Part shown: piece after piece, positions 42,725 to 51,578 of the stretch
How positions within the stretch are numbered: position 1 is the stretch's first letter
Layout of the letters: every line of letters starts with the position of its first letter
DNA from: a virus
IMG/VR virus record: IMGVR_UViG_3300011420_000010
Location: 1 to 51,578 of that record
Length of the DNA: 51,578 nucleotides
Direction: 5' to 3' (one strand)
Made by a program: the position numbers and the translations under genes
The notes under the pieces: generated by a model
Database searches by the model: none
What the model saw: only the letters and a program-made list of their open reading frames with translations
Told to the model about the DNA's origin: nothing

Positions 42725-43102
42725 TTAGCCCAATAGGAGTGGGTCCGTCTGGGAATTTGCACGGGCTGTTTTTGTCGCATTTCGGGCCAGCTCGGCAATG
42801 CAGACTGCCAGCTTCTGGACGTCCGCATGGGTGTCACTGGTGTGGGATCGGAGTGCTATCTCCATCGCCATCGACTCGATCTGTTCAAGCGAAACGTGCA
42901 TTTCGGCTCCCTTCAAATTCCCAGTACAGGTCAGTTGTATGCGATCGTCGAGACGATCCTCACGCAAGAAACGAAACGATTGCGGCCCCTGGAAACCTAA
43001 CCGAACAACACTCGGCGTGAGCCGCCCCACGCCGATCGTGTATCGCTCATCGCCGTGCACGACGAGGATGGACTGCCCGAGCTTGCGGTCGACGGCGTAC
43101 AT
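42725..43102 (-). CDS. CsrA-like RNA-binding translational regulator with C-terminal extension
   Basis: A 125-residue protein. Residues 1-52 align with CsrA: MYAVDRKLGQSILVV (R6 kept), YTIGVGRLTPSVVRLGFQGPQ, and FRFLREDR (R47, equivalent of CsrA R44). These strands form the intertwined dimer that binds GGA in RNA hairpin loops, typically at Shine-Dalgarno sequences. Residues 53-125 are an added helical domain (MHVSLEQIESMAMEIALRSH...). TGATG overlap with the primase-helicase gene. Last gene of arc 1, just before R2. Confidence 0.75.
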   Translation of the reverse strand: MYAVDRKLGQSILVVHGDERYTIGVGRLTPSVVRLGFQGPQSFRFLREDRLDDRIQLTCTGNLKGAEMHVSLEQIESMAMEIALRSHTSDTHADVQKLAVCIAELARNATKTARANSQTDPLLLG

Positions 43103-45243
43103 CAAGGCTTCTCCCTTCCGGCCGCGGCCGAGTCGAGGTGCAGGTCGAAGGGCTTCGCGATGCTCCACAGCTGTCGCATCGTCCGTGATACACGCCACTC
43201 GTCGCCCGGTCGGCCCGGCCCGGCCGCGCGTCGAGCTGCCTTGGTGGGTGCCACCACCCCCAACAGAGCCAAGTCGCGGAGCCGCCGCTTCAACATGTCG
43301 ACGGACATGGACGACTGCTGCGCGATGTCAACGTTCCGCAAGTCCGAGCCGCCCATCTCCATCATGGCAGCCACCACATCGAGGTTGAACCCGATCGCGG
43401 TATCGAAGGCCACGCGCTCCACGAGCCGATAGACTTCATGGTCGACCTTCTTCTTGCCGCGAACCACTGCCGCGGCCATGGCCAGCTTGCTGAACTGGGC
43501 ACAGAGCCGAGTCCCGATCTCACTGACCGGGCGGTAGACAAGGTCCTCTCCGCCACTGCTGGACCAGCTCCGCTTCCACTCCACCTCGTGACGGAGCGTG
43601 GCCACGATCTCGGCGAGGCCTCCGAGTCGCAGTGCAGCCCACTCGGGCATCATCTCACGAGCCTCGCATGCGGAGACGTCGCGGTCGAGGAAGGCCAACG
43701 ACGCGGCCTTCATCCGCTTGGCCTTCTCCAGCTCATGCCCGGCCCCCATGATGATGGCGTAGTACAGCGACTGCCGCTGGCTGAAGCCCATGTCCTTCAG
43801 CTGGAACTTGAGGAAGCGTTCACCCATCGTCGCGTTGGACTCGCCGTGGATCCGGTTGGTGACGCCCGCCAAGATGTTGAAGAAGCCGCGGTACTCGCGG
43901 TACTCCCCATTGCCGAACTTTCGTTGGATGAGGCCGTCGTACGCACCACGGAAGACGCCATGGACCTGCTGCGCGTCGAAGGGGTTGAGGCCCAGGATCT
44001 CGGTCCAGTCCTTGTAGACGCAGCACATCCCGAGCATGTTGGGGATGTCCGATGGGTCCTCGCCGTTGGCTCCGAGCTTGAACCCGGAGACCAGGTTCTT
44101 CGCAGTGACCGAGCTGCGGTAGAACACCTCCTGCACCTCCTCCAATGAGAGGAGGATCTCCGTCTTCCCCGAGCCGGGCGGTCCGACGAGGAAGACCCAG
44201 AGCGGCACGCCTGGCATCTGCGTGGAGAGCGTGATGGCGTACGTCAACCAGAGCGCCTCGACGAGGTCGGGCCGCATCTTGAACTCGGCCTTCTCGAACG
44301 CGGCCACCGTCTTCTCGAACGTTGGGTTGGACTTGGGCCGCGGCCTCTTCTCCTTCTTCCGCATGTCCTCCGGTGCCGCTTGATCCGCCCGCCTGTGCTG
44401 GCGTTTGATCATCTCCTTGAACTCAGCGTACACCGTTGCGGTCGAAGCCTCCTCGTCGATGCATCGCTTCACGATATGGTCGCGGACGTCCCACTTCTCT
44501 GGGTAGGTTTCGGGCCAGCATTGGAACCGCTGCTTGAACACGACACCGTTCAAGGTCTTGACCGAGTGCTTCAAGCTGTAGGTGTCGCCATCCGCGTCGT
44601 TGTCATACCGCCAGATGACGGTGCGGTTGCGGAAGTACGGTGCCCATTCCGGCTTGAAGATGCGGGCACCCGGAACTGCGACGACGATGGCCTTGCGTTT
44701 GATGCGGCGGTTGAGCCATCGCATGGCGCCTCCATCGAACTCGCCTTCGCAGATGTCGACGGGCCAGTCCTTCTTCTTGGGGTCCAGCAGCTCGGGCAGG
44801 TTCCAGAGCGAGACCTGGCAGTCCGACGTCGACCGCGGCTTGCCGCCCGGTCGCCAGCGCCGCAGGTCGCAGACGCGGCCCTTGGCGTTGAAGTGCGGGA
44901 TGAGCCAGTCGCCCGTCAACTCGTTGAAGGCCATGCCCATGCCCTTGAAGCAGGACGCTGGCATGCCGCCGCGGGCCTTCGAGAGAGCCGCCCAGTGGCG
45001 GTCCTCCGTCTCTCCGCGGCAGTGCTCCAGCCACTGCTCAAGGAAGGTCACGAGGTTACCTGACCGTCCGCACGTGTCCGGACTCGACGAACACACCCAC
45101 TGCGTTGACTCCGGCTTCACATGGAACGACCGCGTCTTCCCGCAGAAGGGACAGTCCGACTGCATGGACTGCCCACTCCTGGAGGTGAACTCAACGCCGT
45201 GCTCCTTGAAGGGCCGGAGAGGATCCTTCTCCTTATCCGGCAT
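43102..45243 (-). CDS. Primase-helicase (TOPRIM and AAA/SF helicase)
   Basis: A 713-residue protein. Zinc-binding CPFCGKTRSF (C31, C34) with WVCSSSPDTCG (C51, C58) as in DnaG; TOPRIM DICEGEFDGG (Glu) and VIWRYDNDADGD (Asp-x-Asp). A linker rich in basic residues follows, then helicase Walker A VFLVGPPGSGKTEILLSL and the VYKDWTEI segment. The C-terminal helical domain contains a winged-helix-like part. Start at 45243 chosen as the first sensible Met; overlaps the upstream gene by 11 bases. With the polymerase it forms the replisome core. Confidence 0.85.
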   Translation of the reverse strand: MPDKEKDPLRPFKEHGVEFTSRSGQSMQSDCPFCGKTRSFHVKPESTQWVCSSSPDTCGRSGNLVTFLEQWLEHCRGETEDRHWAALSKARGGMPASCFKGMGMAFNELTGDWLIPHFNAKGRVCDLRRWRPGGKPRSTSDCQVSLWNLPELLDPKKKDWPVDICEGEFDGGAMRWLNRRIKRKAIVVAVPGARIFKPEWAPYFRNRTVIWRYDNDADGDTYSLKHSVKTLNGVVFKQRFQCWPETYPEKWDVRDHIVKRCIDEEASTATVYAEFKEMIKRQHRRADQAAPEDMRKKEKRPRPKSNPTFEKTVAAFEKAEFKMRPDLVEALWLTYAITLSTQMPGVPLWVFLVGPPGSGKTEILLSLEEVQEVFYRSSVTAKNLVSGFKLGANGEDPSDIPNMLGMCCVYKDWTEILGLNPFDAQQVHGVFRGAYDGLIQRKFGNGEYREYRGFFNILAGVTNRIHGESNATMGERFLKFQLKDMGFSQRQSLYYAIIMGAGHELEKAKRMKAASLAFLDRDVSACEAREMMPEWAALRLGGLAEIVATLRHEVEWKRSWSSSGGEDLVYRPVSEIGTRLCAQFSKLAMAAAVVRGKKKVDHEVYRLVERVAFDTAIGFNLDVVAAMMEMGGSDLRNVDIAQQSSMSVDMLKRRLRDLALLGVVAPTKAARRAAGPGRPGDEWRVSRTMRQLWSIAKPFDLHLDSAAAGREKP

Positions 45244-45487
45244 ACCGGGTGCCTCCGTTCTTGCGGTACAACCCCTCGTACACGTAGATGAGGTGGCGGT
45301 CTTCATTGCCGCCGCTCCACCCACCGATGCTGTACACGTGCTGCCATTCGTTGCAGTACGTCCGTTCGCATGCGATGGTCTCCAGTGGCGGCTCCGCCAT
45401 CTGCATCTCGATGAGCTCACATAGCCCGTCGAGTGGTCCGCGATAGTAGCGAACGTACACCATACCGACTTCGGTTTGACCGTTCAT
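45233..45487 (-). CDS. Small conserved phage protein
   Basis: An 84-residue protein: GMVYVRYYRGPLDGLCELIEM..., DRHLIYVYEGLYRKNGGTRYAG. The YYRGPLDG opening is common in small phage proteins of unknown role that lie near replication genes. GGAGGACCT before the ATG at 45487. Confidence 0.6.
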   Translation of the reverse strand: MNGQTEVGMVYVRYYRGPLDGLCELIEMQMAEPPLETIACERTYCNEWQHVYSIGGWSGGNEDRHLIYVYEGLYRKNGGTRYAG

Positions 45488-45501: not shown

Positions 45502-47619
45502 TTAAGCTGCCGTAGCCCAATGGCACTTCCGTTTGTCAACCCAACGCTTGTCGACCGCCTCGCACGTCGTCAGCATGGGGATGCTGAAGACTCCACCGTC
45601 GTCCTCCATCAAGCGGCAGAGGTTCTTGACGTGCTCCATCCGCGGCTGCCCACGTTCGAACTCGAAGATGATCTCGTCGTGGATCGTCATGACTATCCAT
45701 CCGCGGACATCGTTGTCGCGGAGGTACGCTTCGCAAAGCCGCAGCGCCCGCTTCATCAGGTCTGCTGCCGAGCCTTGCACACGGTAGTTCACGCCGCGGT
45801 AGGCGAACTCCGGGTCGACCGCGATGCGTCGCCCGAAGGCCGTCCAGACGCAGCCTTCGCGCCGACCGTCCGCAGTGGTCCGTCGCATGAACGGCTCCAT
45901 GTCTGGGAAGGCCAGCGTGTACTCCTTCAGGAACTGGGCCGCGTAGTCGCGGCTGCACTTCATGAGGTTCATGATCGCAGGGATTCCGCCACCGAAGATC
46001 TTGGTGAAGATGGCGAGTTTCCCCTTGTTCATAGTGTTCTTCTTCTTGCAGTCCTCCTCCGCCTTGACGATGTCGAAGTCGTAGGCTTCGAGCCAGTTCT
46101 TGGCGGTGTGCCAGTCGGTCTTGCCCTTGTACTTCGCACGCATCTTCGCCATCAACATCGAGGCCTCTGAGTCCTGGGCCTTGTCGTCCACTCGCCGCAT
46201 GCCGAGGGCGTCGATGGCGTTGTCGATGGCGACGTCCGTGTTGCCGCCCCACACGTGGTTGGCGCAAGCAGAGTGGACGTGCACGCCGCTGTTGATGATG
46301 CGGAGCAGCTCCCGCTCCTGTGCCAAGTCGGCGAAGATCCGCACCTCCAGCTGGCTGTAGTCCGGACAATACCAGATGCAGCCGGGCGCTGGACCGAAGG
46401 GTGCACGGACATCGATGGGGTTCTTGGCACGGCCCGCCGACTTCGAGGCCACCTGGTGGAGTGCTGGGGTCCGGCAACTGTAGCGGCCGGTGCGAGGGCC
46501 CACCTGGTTGAAGTCGGCGTGGAGCTTCCAGTAGTGCAGCTCCTCATCGTCCACCATGTACGACCGGTACGACGCGAGGAACTGCCGAGCCTTCACTGCG
46601 CCGCGGTGCTTGAGGATGTGGTCGGGCAGCTCGCTCGACGCCGACAACTCCAGGAGAGCGTCGGCGTTGGTGGGCCGGGCGGCTTGGCTCTTGCCTCGCT
46701 GCGCGGGTGGCTTGAGCTTGAGGTGGTCGTAGATGACGGACGCCAGCTGGGGGTGGCTGTTGGGATTGAACGCGGCCAGCCGCTCGCCCTTCTTGTTGCG
46801 AAGGACGCCCGCCTTCAACGCGGCCCGGCCCGCTTCCTGGATGAAGTGGTCGTGCTGCTCCTCGTCGATGCGGTACGCCTTGTCCAGCTTCTTCAGTTCG
46901 TCCGGGTCGATGCGGACGCCACGCTCCTCCATGGCGTAGGTGGTGGGCCAGAGCCGCATCTCCTGTCGGTACGTCTTGCGGACGCCAAGCTCCTTCATCT
47001 TCTCGTTGAAGAAGATCCAGAGCAGCATCGTCCGCTCAGCGTCGCCGACCGCGTACTTGCGGCAGAGCCGCAGGATCCGGTGGGCCTCCTCGCAGTCGCC
47101 CAGGAGTTCGACCGCGTACATGCATAGCCAGTAGTCCTCCGAGACCTTTGTACCGATCTTCCAGCCCAGCTTCTTGGCTTTGCGGCGGAGCTTGACGATG
47201 GCCGACTGCAACTCCTTCTGGTCCTTGTCCGGGTAGTCGGCGTACTTCTTCGCCAGCGGCTTGAGGCCGAGGTTCAGCTCGCCGCTGTTGCAGCAGTGCA
47301 CCGCGAACATCGTCTCTTCGAGCTGGCAGCGGAAGACGCCGACGTTGTACCGGATGTGCCGCACGTCGAACTTCGCGTTGTGCATGACGATCGTCACGTT
47401 CGGATCAGCATGCAACCGACGGAGCGCTCGCCACTCCGCCGGTCGCTTGCTGTACTGGACCGTCCGCGTCCATGGGTCCACCGGGAACTCGAAGTACTCC
47501 GTATCCCCTTCGTCATTGCAGAAGCTGAAGGCGAACGGCGCAGCACCTCGCCAGACACTGAGGCCGGTGGTCTCAGTGTCTTCCGCGATGTACTTCCCGG
47601 TGATGAAGTGCTTCTTCAC
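45502..47619 (-). CDS. polA: DNA polymerase, family A, with 3'-5' exonuclease
   Basis: A 705-residue PolA. Exonuclease: AEDTETTGL (D14, E16), HNAKFDVRHI, with the later tyrosine motif. Polymerase: motif A PDYSQLEVRIFADL, motif B GKLAIFTKIFGGG, motif C MTIHDEIIFE. In motif B the Phe matching E. coli F762 is kept, and the Tyr766 equivalent is Phe. Start chosen at GTG 47619, which makes GTGA overlap with the upstream stop and has GGAGG at spacing 9; an ATG at 47637 lacks a Shine-Dalgarno. Confidence 0.9.
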   Translation of the reverse strand: MKKHFITGKYIAEDTETTGLSVWRGAAPFAFSFCNDEGDTEYFEFPVDPWTRTVQYSKRPAEWRALRRLHADPNVTIVMHNAKFDVRHIRYNVGVFRCQLEETMFAVHCCNSGELNLGLKPLAKKYADYPDKDQKELQSAIVKLRRKAKKLGWKIGTKVSEDYWLCMYAVELLGDCEEAHRILRLCRKYAVGDAERTMLLWIFFNEKMKELGVRKTYRQEMRLWPTTYAMEERGVRIDPDELKKLDKAYRIDEEQHDHFIQEAGRAALKAGVLRNKKGERLAAFNPNSHPQLASVIYDHLKLKPPAQRGKSQAARPTNADALLELSASSELPDHILKHRGAVKARQFLASYRSYMVDDEELHYWKLHADFNQVGPRTGRYSCRTPALHQVASKSAGRAKNPIDVRAPFGPAPGCIWYCPDYSQLEVRIFADLAQERELLRIINSGVHVHSACANHVWGGNTDVAIDNAIDALGMRRVDDKAQDSEASMLMAKMRAKYKGKTDWHTAKNWLEAYDFDIVKAEEDCKKKNTMNKGKLAIFTKIFGGGIPAIMNLMKCSRDYAAQFLKEYTLAFPDMEPFMRRTTADGRREGCVWTAFGRRIAVDPEFAYRGVNYRVQGSAADLMKRALRLCEAYLRDNDVRGWIVMTIHDEIIFEFERGQPRMEHVKNLCRLMEDDGGVFSIPMLTTCEAVDKRWVDKRKCHWATAA

Positions 47620-47996
47620 TTCTTGTGTCCTCCGCATCCGACGTGTCCACACTTAGGGCAGCAGACGCCATGGACGACGTCGCCAACCGTCACAGCTTCG
47701 AGATGCCGACCGTGGCATCGAGCCGCTCGCATCTCGAACAGCAGAAGTGCGGTGTTCAACAGACCAATCGCCGCTTCCGTTTCCGGACAAGGCGTCTGCT
47801 TATTGACGTACTTCGCTCGGTCGATCAAAGCCCGCAGTACCTCCTGCGAGGTCGTTCCGCTGTGGGCACCGGTGTTGCCAGGGTACTTCGAACCCTCCCG
47901 CTTGACGAACATGAGGATCGACTGCGGCTCCTGATCAACATACGGCCAGTCGAGGACCCGCAATCCATACGAGTGGCCAGGGTCTAATACCTTCAT
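47616..47996 (-). CDS. Conserved phage protein of unknown function with C-terminal zinc knuckle
   Basis: A 126-residue protein: KVLDPGHSYGLRVLDWP, ILMFVKREGSKYPGNTGAHSGTTSQEVLRALIDRAKYVNKQTPCPET, LLLFEMRAARCHGR. This sequence pattern recurs in many phages beside replication genes but has no assigned role. The end, VCCPKCGHVGCGGHKK, adds a Cys/His zinc site. It overlaps ThyX-like and polymerase genes by 4 bases each. Confidence 0.7.
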   Translation of the reverse strand: MKVLDPGHSYGLRVLDWPYVDQEPQSILMFVKREGSKYPGNTGAHSGTTSQEVLRALIDRAKYVNKQTPCPETEAAIGLLNTALLLFEMRAARCHGRHLEAVTVGDVVHGVCCPKCGHVGCGGHKK

Positions 47997-49057
47997 GGGT
48001 TCATCCTCAAACCGGTCCAAACGTTGCGGTCCCACAGTGACTCGTACGCTTCCTGGAGTTCAGCGAAGCGCTGCCGATCGGCCGCGGCCTCCGTGTCCCA
48101 GGTCTGGTGCGTGCGGTCCGCTGGGAAGTACTTGACGAGGTTGGCGTCCGGCACCGCGGCCATCTCCTCCGCACCGTGGTGGTGGAGGAAGAGCGGGCAA
48201 GGCGGCTCCGGGTCCTTGCCGAGCATCCGCTGAACATTGTCCGGGATGAACGGGCACCCGGCGAACCGCTCGTTGTGGATGCACGGTGGGTTGATGAGCG
48301 AGCGGAAGCAACCGTCGACGTGCTCGCAGAGCTCGTTCACGATGTCGGTGATGATCGGCCTCCACATGCCGAGCTGCGCGATCCAACAGCCGCGGCGTCG
48401 GACGATGTGCTTGAGAGCCTGGTAGTTCATCTTCCAGGTCAGCCGGCTGGACGCAGCCAGCGGCAGCACCTGCCGCGCGTCCTCCGGTGGGACGCCCGCC
48501 TTCACCAGCATCTGGTAGGCCCGCTGGCTGATAAGCATGAACTGGCTGTAGAGCTCCTCCGCCTTCATCAGCACGCCACCGTCGGCGTTGTCGACCGCCC
48601 GGTCGTCGATGCTGTCCGGCTTGAAGTAGTCGCCGTTGACTGCGAACTGGCCCATGTCCAGGACACGCATCGACTGCGACCACCAGCTGGACTGTACGTC
48701 GCCCGGCACGATGTCGACCGCGTAGTTCTCGCCGAACCGGTGGCCGATGCGGTGCCGAACGATCTGCTCCCGGAGGGAGACCGGAACGTTCTCCAACAGG
48801 AAGATGAAGTCGAGGTTCTCGGCGACCGGGATGTCCGACTCGATGACCTGCGAGAAGACCTCTCGGATCTCGTCGGCCAACGCAAGGTCGCAGAGAGCCG
48901 CTTCGTGGTACTGCTCCGGTGTCATGATCGTGTCGCGTGAACGACTCGCATGCCACAGTGCATAGATCGTCTCCACCGGGTATCCGATGGTGGAGAGGAG
49001 CCGAGCCGTCGGACGCCGCGGTCCGACCATTCGTTCGGTGATGCTGAACTCTTGCAT
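47993..49057 (-). CDS. Divergent ThyX-like flavin-dependent thymidylate synthase
   Basis: A 354-residue protein, longer than common ThyX (about 220-250). LREQIVRHRIGHRFGENYAVD (RHR at 101-103) occupies the place of the RHRxxSxNExSxRY signature but lacks its Ser and Glu order. WWSQSMRVLDMG and PEDARQVLPLAASSRLTWKMNYQALKHIVRRR match the C-terminal ThyX block. Likely a dUMP methyltransferase using FAD, or a relative acting on a modified base; the variant signature leaves the reaction open. The extra C-terminal region has His/Cys-rich segments. Start at 49057. Confidence 0.75.
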   Translation of the reverse strand: MQEFSITERMVGPRRPTARLLSTIGYPVETIYALWHASRSRDTIMTPEQYHEAALCDLALADEIREVFSQVIESDIPVAENLDFIFLLENVPVSLREQIVRHRIGHRFGENYAVDIVPGDVQSSWWSQSMRVLDMGQFAVNGDYFKPDSIDDRAVDNADGGVLMKAEELYSQFMLISQRAYQMLVKAGVPPEDARQVLPLAASSRLTWKMNYQALKHIVRRRGCWIAQLGMWRPIITDIVNELCEHVDGCFRSLINPPCIHNERFAGCPFIPDNVQRMLGKDPEPPCPLFLHHHGAEEMAAVPDANLVKYFPADRTHQTWDTEAAADRQRFAELQEAYESLWDRNVWTGLRMNP

Positions 49058-49065
49058 TGGAACTC

Positions 49066-50118
49066 CTAGGGCATTGAGAGGGTTGAAGTGGAAGCGGCGT
49101 GCGCCGCAAGGTTGACCTGCAGTTGCTTGTACTGGCAGATCTCCGAACACGGCATGTCCGCCTTGCCGTAGTGGCAATGCGGACGATAGCGGTCAAGCAA
49201 CCGCCGAGCTGCACTCATCGCAGGGGAGTGGGCGACTTCCTGGAAGTAGTTCCCGATGCGAAGCTGCGGGTACGTCGTGATGGCCTCGCCGCCCGCCAAG
49301 CAGCACGGGTACCAGTCGCCGTTGGCCTTCGCGTGGAAGCTGATGTTGCCCGCGTAGCAGGGCACCGACTTCGCAGCGTCGGACTCGCAGAACTGCCGCG
49401 TCTCCCAGACGTCGTCGGCGAAGGACGTTGGCACACTCCAGGACTTCGCGTCCTTGGCCAGCTCCCGGTACCGACTCCAGAACCCGTCGTCGCGGCCGAC
49501 CCGCGGCCCGATGCCTGCCATGAAGACGGCTTTGCGGATTGGCGTCTGCCGATGCAGCACCTCCAGCGCGTCGAGGATGGCGTAGCAGTGGCCGAGGTTC
49601 TCGGGCATGACGGTCGTCCGAGTGGCGAGGCCGCGGTGCCCGAGGTGCTTCATCCGGCGAAGCACCTCATGCGGGTCGGTCTGCTTGTCGCCGCGGATCT
49701 TCGCGTAGATCTCAGGTTGCACGGCGTCGAGCGAAACGCAGACGTCGTCGAAGATCTGCCACTGCGCCGGGTCCGGGTCCTGCGTAAGAGCCGTGTTGAT
49801 CTGCAGCTTGAAGCGGCTGTAGGTCGTCTCGCCCGCCCACCAGTTGAGGAAGGCGTCGAGGTACGGCCAAGCCTGCGGGTCGCCGCCCGTCAAGGTGAGG
49901 TGCTCGAATGGATGCGTCCGCATCAGCTCGACGCAGAGCGCCTGCAAGGTCGGCAGCTCCCACATGCCACGAACGACGCCGCTCAGATCGTCACGCCAAG
50001 ACTCGCAGGCCCGGCAATGCTGGAAGCACTTCGAGCTGACCTCGACCTGCCCGGAGACGTACCCGGTGCGAAGCAAGGCCAGCTTCGCGTACTGCTGGAT
50101 GTCGGATCGGATCTCCAT
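49066..50118 (-). CDS. Radical SAM protein with SPASM-like C-terminus
   Basis: A 350-residue protein. SSKCFQHCRACES (C31, C35, C38) is the CX3CX2C cluster site, HLTLTGGDPQ the SAM-binding GGxP motif. The end has many Cys: VPCYAGNISFHAKANGDWYPCC and HCHYGKADMPCSEICQ, like a SPASM or twitch auxiliary cluster domain. Substrate not evident. Placement between ThyX and the nucleotide phosphohydrolase suggests nucleotide or base modification, but peptide substrates are typical of SPASM proteins. Confidence 0.8.
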   Translation of the reverse strand: MEIRSDIQQYAKLALLRTGYVSGQVEVSSKCFQHCRACESWRDDLSGVVRGMWELPTLQALCVELMRTHPFEHLTLTGGDPQAWPYLDAFLNWWAGETTYSRFKLQINTALTQDPDPAQWQIFDDVCVSLDAVQPEIYAKIRGDKQTDPHEVLRRMKHLGHRGLATRTTVMPENLGHCYAILDALEVLHRQTPIRKAVFMAGIGPRVGRDDGFWSRYRELAKDAKSWSVPTSFADDVWETRQFCESDAAKSVPCYAGNISFHAKANGDWYPCCLAGGEAITTYPQLRIGNYFQEVAHSPAMSAARRLLDRYRPHCHYGKADMPCSEICQYKQLQVNLAAHAASTSTLSMP

Positions 50119-50571
50119 CTACTCTTCCTCCTCTACCGCGACTGCTCCCGCGGCCTCTTCAGCCATCGCGAAGTACGCCCGACCATCGACGTAATGGTCG
50201 AGTCCCTGTGGGTCGACGGCCACCCGGTTCGCCTTGTTAAGGGCCATCATGATCTCGACGAGGTGCGCCGGGATCGGATGAGCGAGCTGGATGCCGTAGT
50301 GGTTCTGCAACAACCCGGTCCACATGAGGCCGAGGTTGCCGTGCCCAGCTTTGTGGTCCGGGCCGTACCGCAATGACCGCACCTCGCGGATGTGGTCCTC
50401 CGCCGCGGGCCGCGTCGAAGGGTCGACGAGAAGTTCCGACATGAACTTCGAGTCGTCTTGATGCGGTTCGACTTCGACCTTCCTCTTCTGTCCGTGCCCT
50501 CGCCGCGTCCGAGTCAATGGCTCTTCGTCCGCGGTGAGCTTCTTACCAGAGACGCCTCTGCTTCTCTTCAT
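50119..50571 (-). CDS. DUF6378-like protein
   Basis: A 150-residue protein. The N-terminus is basic (MKRSRGVSGKKLTADEEPLTRTRRG). Residues 60-135, REVRSLRYGPDHKAGHGNLGLMW, then EIMMALNKANRVAVDPQGLDHYVDGRAYFAMAEE, match the phage DUF6378 pattern (YG..., M-x-x-x-K-x-x-R, D-x-x-x-D-x-x-x-Y). Role unknown. Overlaps the HD gene by 29 bases. Confidence 0.6.
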   Translation of the reverse strand: MKRSRGVSGKKLTADEEPLTRTRRGHGQKRKVEVEPHQDDSKFMSELLVDPSTRPAAEDHIREVRSLRYGPDHKAGHGNLGLMWTGLLQNHYGIQLAHPIPAHLVEIMMALNKANRVAVDPQGLDHYVDGRAYFAMAEEAAGAVAVEEEE

Positions 50572-51178
50572 TGCAGATCTCCTTCATGATGCGGGCCGCT
50601 TGCGTAACGAGCGGCCGGATGAAATCGCACTTGGACTGTTCGAACTCGCCGAAGTATGCGTCGAGCTTCTCGATGTGCTCGACTGCGTTTCGGTTGCCGC
50701 TCTCGATCTCCTGGATAACGTACGAGAGCACGCTGAGGAAGTCGGCGAAGGAAACGACGAGGCCTTCCGGCGAGTTGTCCTTCGCTGTCTTCCAGGAATC
50801 GGCCAGCTCCACCTGCCACTGACCTTCAACCAGGTTGTCGGCCAGCTGCCGCATGGCAGTCGCGGCCACCCGGTCCAGCTCCGCCCGCAGCGTCGGGTCG
50901 GAGTGCTTGAAGTTGCGCGGCCAGTCGCCCGATCGCGACTCCTCGACATCGTGGATGACGGTCTTCGACATGAGCTTCCGCCAGTTGAGCGGCGTTCCAT
51001 GCCAGAACTCGTACCACTGGCCGATGAGCGTCGCGTACAAGGCGACGAAGAAGCTGTGCTCCGCGACGGTCTCACGGTGGTTGACGCGGCACGTCGAGTA
51101 GCGGTCGACGTATCGAAGTCGAACGAGGTCGCCGCGCAGCATCTCGCGGATGTTCAGCTCGTGCTTCGGCAACGTCAT
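50543..51178 (-). CDS. HD-domain 5'-deoxynucleotidase (YfbR-like)
   Basis: A 211-residue HD protein. ETVAEHSFFVALYA (H41), VIHDVEESRSGDWP (H76-D77) and VSFADFLSVLSYV (D146) are the metal ligands in YfbR-like spacing. Would remove phosphate from deoxynucleoside monophosphates, supplying deoxynucleosides to the neighbouring deoxyribosyltransferase. ATGA overlap with that gene's stop. Confidence 0.75.
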   Translation of the reverse strand: MTLPKHELNIREMLRGDLVRLRYVDRYSTCRVNHRETVAEHSFFVALYATLIGQWYEFWHGTPLNWRKLMSKTVIHDVEESRSGDWPRNFKHSDPTLRAELDRVAATAMRQLADNLVEGQWQVELADSWKTAKDNSPEGLVVSFADFLSVLSYVIQEIESGNRNAVEHIEKLDAYFGEFEQSKCDFIRPLVTQAARIMKEICNEEKQRRLW

Positions 51179-51578
51179 TCAACACCCCCTGTCCAGCCGG
51201 CTCCGACGAGCGGCATCTCGTGGGCCTTGCGGTTGAGGTAGTCTTCGAGCTGCTCCCAGCCGTGGATCACCTCGACCGCGGCTTCCGTCAACATGAGGTT
51301 GAGGTTGCCGGGCGGCTCCAACGTGAAGAGGGCCGTCCGCTTCTGGAGTGCGTACCCGTAGCCCAGCTCCCACACCGTGCCGAGATCCGGCTGGCAAAGC
51401 GGCCCCTTGATCGGCTCAAGGTTGCGGGCGGAGATCTGCCCTTCCCCAGTCGGCCGCAGCAGCCGCGGGTTCAAGCCTGGCGTCGTGATCTGGCAGTCCT
51501 TCTCTTCGCAGAGATAGACTCCGATCTCGTTCGACGGCTGCAGTCGGTCGATCCACGCCAGGATCTCGGTGCAGTCGC
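51175..51578 (-). CDS. Nucleoside 2-deoxyribosyltransferase, C-terminal part (cut by window end)
   Basis: Open to the window end without a start. DCTEILAWIDR, then PDLGTVWELGYGYALQKRT and NLNLMLTEAAVEVI give the acidic D-x-G-T-x-x-E-x-G active site and following strand of the family. About 50 extra residues lie between AWIDR and PDLGT. This is the continuation of the N-terminal piece at 1-156. The stop overlaps the HD phosphohydrolase start, pairing two nucleoside enzymes. Confidence 0.8.
   Translation of the reverse strand, partial: DCTEILAWIDRLQPSNEIGVYLCEEKDCQITTPGLNPRLLRPTGEGQISARNLEPIKGPLCQPDLGTVWELGYGYALQKRTALFTLEPPGNLNLMLTEAAVEVIHGWEQLEDYLNRKAHEMPLVGAGWTGGVE

Follow-up and report, generated by a model that had tools for sequence, protein, structure and literature searches.

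What does the row of nucleotide-metabolism genes beside the DNA polymerase gene of IMG/VR virus record IMGVR_UViG_3300011420_000010 produce? The whole record of 51,578 bases, whose completeness is not established, was analyzed and is here called the window. On its minus strand, from 51578 to 45502, genes for a nucleoside 2-deoxyribosyltransferase (NDT)-family protein, an HD phosphohydrolase of the YfbR-like type, a DUF6378 protein, a radical SAM/SPASM protein, a ThyX, a small open reading frame (ORF) and the family A polymerase (PolA) follow each other in the direction of transcription, and a primase/helicase-like gene comes next. The row genes mostly overlap or abut, with gaps of -4, -29, 0 and +8 nucleotides (nt) from NDT to ThyX. 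An earlier reading of the DNA (the original prediction) had placed NDT, HD, radical SAM and ThyX in one row by the polymerase, which is borne out by profile matches, gene order and these gaps; the DUF6378 gene and the small ORF, which it did not name, are also part of the row. As the row recurs in divergent contigs, it exceeds what would be expected by chance. The contigs of the relatives are fragments with mechanical gene calls, and the family names used here are annotations. We judge the chances to be about even that the enzymes of the cassette make a non-canonical deoxynucleotide before replication, most probably a deoxyuridylate modified at C5, with which the polymerase would replace thymine in the phage DNA partly or completely.

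The original prediction had rested in part on a ThyX that lacked the signature of its family. Alignment with the ThyX proteins of the cultured phages LIS04, Madi, PB1 and VA-RY-3 led us to drop a lost signature in favor of a split one: the motif RHRxxSxNxxSxR is present as RHRIG and SWWSQSMR, separated by an insert of 18 residues (HRFGENYAVDIVPGDVQS), and the run RHRIGHRFGENY is the first half of the motif continuing into this insert. The insert is absent from all four cultured-phage proteins, and the unsplit motif reads RSKFASYWTQTSR in LIS04 and RNRTGSYAQQTMR in VA-RY-3. In a HMMER alignment, Q98, R101, H102 and R103 of the window ThyX paired with Q75, R78, H79 and R80 of T. maritima ThyX, and E192, R195, N211 and R222 paired with E144, R147, N163 and R174; S129 and R131 corresponded by motif to S88 and R90 (residue numbers were derived by us from the chain numbering). 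We take these positions to be involved in the binding of deoxyuridine monophosphate (dUMP) and flavin adenine dinucleotide (FAD), and several of them appear as mutants in PDB titles. Given this pairing, the split ThyX should still bind a deoxyuridylate. Judged from the alignment, the nucleotide site is intact; what has changed lies in the interior of the motif, where N85 is replaced by W and E86 by S (T. maritima numbering). Loss of N and E was also observed in several cultured-phage ThyX proteins, none of which has the insert. The corresponding motifs are SYAQESMR in Madi (L003), AYQQETSR in PB1 (L004) and SYAQQTMR in VA-RY-3 (L037).

The mechanical ORF of the window ThyX begins at TTG; the ATG at 49057, which is preceded by AGGAG, is the better choice and results in a protein of 354 amino acids (aa); most ThyX proteins of solved structure have roughly 210-245 aa. 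The additional length, already noticed in the original prediction, is mainly due to a C-terminal extension. Three cysteines of this extension (C259, C268 and C287) and C224 were invariant across the 21 sequences of a ThyX alignment. The protein scored 71.7 bits with the Thy1 profile PF02511 (cut-off 24.8) and 60.7 bits with TIGR02170, the equivalog of FAD-dependent thymidylate synthase (cut-off 87.9), for which a member of the second lineage described below scored 61.2 bits. The AlphaFold2 model (predicted local distance difference test, pLDDT, 82.9) had a confident ThyX fold, with the insert predicted to be disordered (residues 104-128, pLDDT <50). Structural comparison by VIA-align gave Z-scores of 13.2 for M. 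tuberculosis ThyX (3hzg), 12.6 for T. maritima ThyX and 11.9 for PolB, a uridine monophosphate (UMP)/dUMP methylase of nucleoside antibiotic biosynthesis. PolB thus has the ThyX fold outside the supply of thymidylate (dTMP), but it is no closer to the split ThyX than ordinary ThyX proteins are (Z 12-13). We know of no split motif in PolB.

A scan of viral contigs with the window ThyX alone as query returned no relative, whereas a two-row alignment of the window and L005 proteins retrieved 27 loci. With loci found later, the family contains 24 distinct full-length sequences including that of the window, all from uncultured virus contigs, and in 24 of 24 the insert is at the same place. The contiguous RHRxxSxNxxS signature is interrupted by 18-24 residues, with N and E replaced. 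When cultured phages were searched with a probe peptide for the insert, only chance-level partial matches were obtained, and a scan of GTDB genomes with the ThyX alignment detected no split ThyX and so gave no link to a host or prophage. In the majority of records, Thy1 is encoded only once. In a maximum-likelihood tree, in which the root, the long branches of SP-15 and LIS04 and many inner forks were unresolved, the split ThyX proteins were located on one side of a branch, and a group of second ThyX proteins on the other.

The split ThyX is present in at least two phage lineages, groups A and B. In group A, 13 relatives keep the order NDT-HD-DUF6378-radical SAM-ThyX-PolA with roughly 30-60% identity (tblastn), and 11 of them have the radical SAM gene. 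No group B record had a radical SAM protein of this kind, which was found in the window and these 11 relatives. Among the group A records, the HD gene is missing only from L011 and L017, the contigs of which start within the cassette. In five relatives (L013, L017, L039, L040 and L042), DUF6378 and radical SAM are separated by a gene for a second ThyX, which has diverged in a different way. Its motif is R[VT]HRHxSFFSxSHQL, the residues aligning to T. maritima R78 and R90 are missing, and in L013, L017 and L039 the protein terminates in a CCxxxCxxC-type cysteine cluster. A need for dTMP would not by itself readily account for this second ThyX.

Several contigs of the group differ in detail. In L015, the protein encoded at the DUF6378 position has a P-loop region with a weak match to phage thymidylate kinase. 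The one ThyX of L043 lacks the insert, and that of L046 is located elsewhere in the contig. In L011, an N6/N4-type DNA methylase gene is situated between ThyX and PolA. A NADAR-type protein is added in L040 and L042 (Pfam match tested for L040), and the radical SAM gene of L040 is flanked, within the cassette, by NADAR-domain and active-type DUF488 proteins, which are possible further base-handling enzymes.

Group B consists of 12 loci on contigs of up to 107 kb, in which the split ThyX lies near a DnaE polymerase. Its neighbors are a MazG-NT5C fusion, a Thi4/NAD-binding-like protein, a class III aminotransferase and a thymidylate-kinase-like protein. The aminotransferase, found at 11 of the loci, matches PF00202 (4.6e-64) and is argD-like but under the family cut-offs; the kinase-like protein matches phage thymidylate kinase (phrog_761, 1.2e-9). 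In L018 the ThyX and aminotransferase genes overlap by 4 nt, as do the aminotransferase and kinase-like genes.

The radical SAM protein of the window contains the motif CX3CX2C (CFQHCRAC). The extra cysteines described in the original prediction are indeed there: five more (C254, C272, C273, C324 and C328) were invariant in an alignment with six relatives. With Pfam the window copy scored 24 and 18.6 bits, under the cut-offs (24 vs 29.5 bits), and the L013 copy scored 45.5 and 30.9 bits, over both. The CX3CX2C motif, the L013 score and a fold Z-score above 20 to MoaA place the protein in the radical SAM superfamily. The fold matches included BlsE (Z 21.6), MoaA (Z 20.4) and viperin-like enzymes (Z 18.6), which share the overall fold and act on nucleosides or nucleotides. 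Identity was low (10-14%), and these matches were tied with peptide-modifying enzymes such as SkfB and SuiB; the fold therefore does not reveal the substrate. A search of cultured phages with the window protein gave no match.

The HD protein scored 84.6 bits with PF12917 (cut-off 25.9) and 48.3 bits with NF003009, the equivalog of the 5'-deoxynucleotidase YfbR (cut-off 122); its best PHROG was the dATP triphosphohydrolase phrog_7076 (4.6e-19). The truncated NDT copy of the window reached 21.3 bits with PF05014 (3.2e-4; cut-off 28.8), and the complete syntenic relatives in L009 and L012 reached 51.5 and 59.3 bits. Like those of DUF6378 and radical SAM, the roles of HD and NDT in the cassette are ones that we infer. 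PolA scored 141 bits with the DpoZ model NF038380 (cut-off 500). The O-helix of PolA in the window (45502-47619) is off the usual pattern (KLAIFTKIFGGG). Covariation of this helix with the split ThyX was checked and was unsupported: the relatives differ in the helix, but not in step with their possession of a split ThyX.

Parts of the cassette are shared with phages known to alter their bases. LIS04 ThyX was the best named match to the window ThyX. SP-15, which contains 5-(4',5'-dihydroxypentyl)uracil, encodes two ThyX proteins, an NDT and an HD hydrolase; about half of its thymine is hypermodified, and gp130, a ThyX, was proposed as the modifying synthase (PMC5977210). In a comparison restricted to genes outside the SP-15 sugar cluster (genes 146-155), SP-15 and LIS04 resemble the cassette in having a ThyX, an NDT-family gene near it, a YfbR-like HD and a family A polymerase. 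They differ from it in that the LIS04 motif is without an insert, SP-15 gp130 is very divergent and a search of cultured phages found no relative of the radical SAM protein. In Z-DNA (2-aminoadenine) phages, a YfbR-like HD, an NDT-family enzyme and a family A polymerase likewise occur together: DatZ (PF12917) or the NDT-family DmtZ shapes the nucleotide pool and DpoZ incorporates the base (PMC12884076). Membership of the Z-DNA pathway was rejected, since the polymerase is under the DpoZ cut-off and no PurZ/PurA homolog (PF00709) was found in 21 records, which may be fragments, while 14 of 14 controls matched; unlike those phages, the cassette also has ThyX and radical SAM in the row. With the ThyA-based thymidine modification systems (SPO1 hydroxymethylase; M6-like), the cassette shares the proximity of a thymidylate-synthase-type enzyme, a 5'-deoxynucleotidase and PolA, an arrangement known from pelagiphages (PMC9599517). 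The synthases of those systems are of the ThyA type, whereas none of 28 records here had a match to PF00303 (controls matched), and a ThyA-type dUMP hydroxymethylase was therefore rejected. By analogy with these systems, the nucleotide-destroying HD and NDT enzymes beside a nucleotide-building enzyme and a polymerase appear to follow the pattern of base-replacing phages.

A pathway of four steps can be proposed. The split ThyX would bind dUMP and FAD and add a one-carbon unit at C5, and its remodeled loop would steer the exocyclic methylene away from a plain methyl group, for example by capture with water or an amine; alternatively, it may ready the substrate for the next step. The radical SAM/SPASM enzyme would then elaborate the nucleotide, a task for which group B may use the aminotransferase and the kinase-like protein instead. 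HD phosphohydrolase and the NDT-family enzyme, perhaps a deoxynucleoside monophosphate N-glycosidase, would deplete the competing canonical nucleotide, and PolA would incorporate the product. ThyX catalysis goes via a species that was trapped as 5-hydroxymethyl-dUMP (PMC3498832), and MnmEG, with FAD and methylenetetrahydrofolate, installs aminomethyl-type groups at uridine C5 (PMC9626948), which makes diversion of the ThyX methylene chemically plausible. Hydroxymethylated nucleotides are substrates of DNPH1 and MilB, both members of the NDT family (PMC10603095, PMC4081090). Our tentative proposal, which we hold with less than even confidence, is a new pre-replicative hypermodification pathway, in which the split ThyX diverts the folate/FAD methylene on dUMP, a radical SAM enzyme or class III aminotransferase completes an undescribed C5-modified thymidine analog, and HD and NDT purge the competitor.

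The modification cassette of the original prediction is thus partly supported. Gene linkage, the second ThyX, the group B partners and the parts shared with SP-15 and Z-DNA phages make it the best reading of the comparative evidence; the argument from a missing signature was wrong, as the motif is split and the dUMP positions are kept. Several observations weigh against a modification pathway. The intact dUMP site makes plain dTMP synthesis possible, the changes of N and E are not specific, as other cultured-phage ThyX proteins lack both residues, and the insert, predicted to be disordered, could be a loop of no consequence. The two relatives with the most similar ThyX proteins, L009 and L010, are without a radical SAM gene on their short contigs; group A consists of related phages, so that its synteny is not fully independent; and SP-15 and LIS04 are only distantly similar. 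The chemistry of every step, the nature of the product and its incorporation into phage DNA are what we infer, and together with the intact dUMP site this gives some weight to the main rival, which we consider less likely than modification: a structurally unusual but genuine thymidylate synthase in an ordinary nucleotide supply, with HD and NDT recycling or balancing host nucleotides, an unrelated radical SAM protein and unmodified DNA. The split ThyX is the sole thymidylate synthase homolog in most records, with ThyA in none, ThyX is located near replication genes in many phages, and in most jumbo phages a thymidylate synthase or ThyX is encoded, the product of which has been interpreted as thymidylate or a modified pyrimidine (PMC7824862). 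What ordinary supply leaves unexplained is the second ThyX of five relatives, the conserved radical SAM neighbor, the group B aminotransferase and the presence of nucleotide-destroying enzymes in the row.

It is unlikely that a purine is modified instead of thymine, with HD and NDT acting on dATP or dAMP, radical SAM on a purine nucleotide and ThyX supplying dTMP only. The dATP triphosphohydrolase match of HD and the activity of the NDT-family DmtZ on dAMP (PMC12884076) are in line with it, as is the weak cross-match of PolA to the DpoZ model, which any family A polymerase may give. The missing PurZ/PurA homologs and the DpoZ score speak against it, and the duplicated, remodeled ThyX would be left unexplained. 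Very improbable is a radical SAM enzyme that makes an anti-host or anti-defense small molecule or altered nucleotide, viperin-like in idea, rather than a DNA precursor: viperin-like enzymes are among the fold matches beside MoaA and BlsE, but the best matches are tied over many radical SAM types, and wherever the gene is present in a relative, it lies between nucleotide genes and PolA, which points to DNA precursors.

The coordinates of the row and of the related loci are listed in Table 1. As read from the DNA, the overlap of ThyX and the small ORF is ATGA, and that of the small ORF and PolA is GTGA. The ORF finder lists the small ORF as 47616-48035, from a GTG; for PolA, listed from 47652, the likely start is the GTG at 47619 within the small ORF. 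The remaining window (255-43198) encodes, by Pfam, ordinary tailed-phage genes (lambda-type portal, capsid, head completion, fiber), a staphylococcal-nuclease homolog and a trypsin-like peptidase; no glycosyltransferase was detected there by Pfam at E 1e-5.

Table 1. Features of the gene row beside PolA and of related loci in other virus contigs.
Feature	Record	Coordinates	Strand	Remarks
NDT-family protein, C-terminal 133 aa	window	51175..51578	-	start beyond contig end; catalytic-type motif GTVWELGYGYAL; phrog_7995 2e-8
YfbR/DatZ-like HD phosphohydrolase, 211 aa	window	50543..51178	-	4-nt overlap with NDT gene; PF12917 8.8e-24
DUF6378 protein, 150 aa	window	50119..50571	-	PF19905 6.3e-9; kept in relatives
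Radical SAM protein, SPASM-like C-terminal cysteines, 350 aa	window	49066..50118	-	CFQHCRAC; alignment; fold matches
Split-signature ThyX, 354 aa	window	47993..49057	-	ATG start, AGGAG upstream; PF02511 8.7e-20
ThyX insert, 18 residues (106-123), between RHRIG and SWWSQSMR	window	~48673..48744, approximate	-	alignments
Small ORF between ThyX and PolA, 126 aa	window	47616..47996	-	from ATG overlapping ThyX stop; phrog_2428 (unknown function) 5.8e-5
Family A DNA polymerase with 3'-5' exonuclease domain	window	45502..47619	-	PF00476 3e-51; PF01612 1.6e-11
Primase/helicase-like protein, downstream of PolA	window	43102..45420	-	phrog_47 DNA primase 5.9e-11; position kept in relatives by synteny
Second ThyX	L013	7811-8650
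Second ThyX	L017	421-1227
Second ThyX	L039	6277-7089
Second ThyX	L040	7878-8759
Second ThyX	L042	1759-2643
NADAR-domain and active-type DUF488 proteins	L040	8879-9334 and 10707-11072
N6/N4-type DNA methylase	L011	1678-2628		PF01555 2.2e-51
Group B row	L018	7343-17179		equivalents in L014, L019, L022, L024, L025, L027-L030, L032, L034

If the proposed pathway is correct, a chemistry that is based on ThyX and partnered by radical SAM enzymes or aminotransferases would join the known ways in which phages rewrite thymine, and the remodeling and occasional duplication of ThyX in these phages would be accounted for. The pattern of RHR[IV]G, insert and [ST][WF]WxQSMR would serve as a sequence handle for the detection of such phages in metagenomes, and the proposal that ThyX paralogs start the synthesis of the hypermodified base in SP-15 would become testable.

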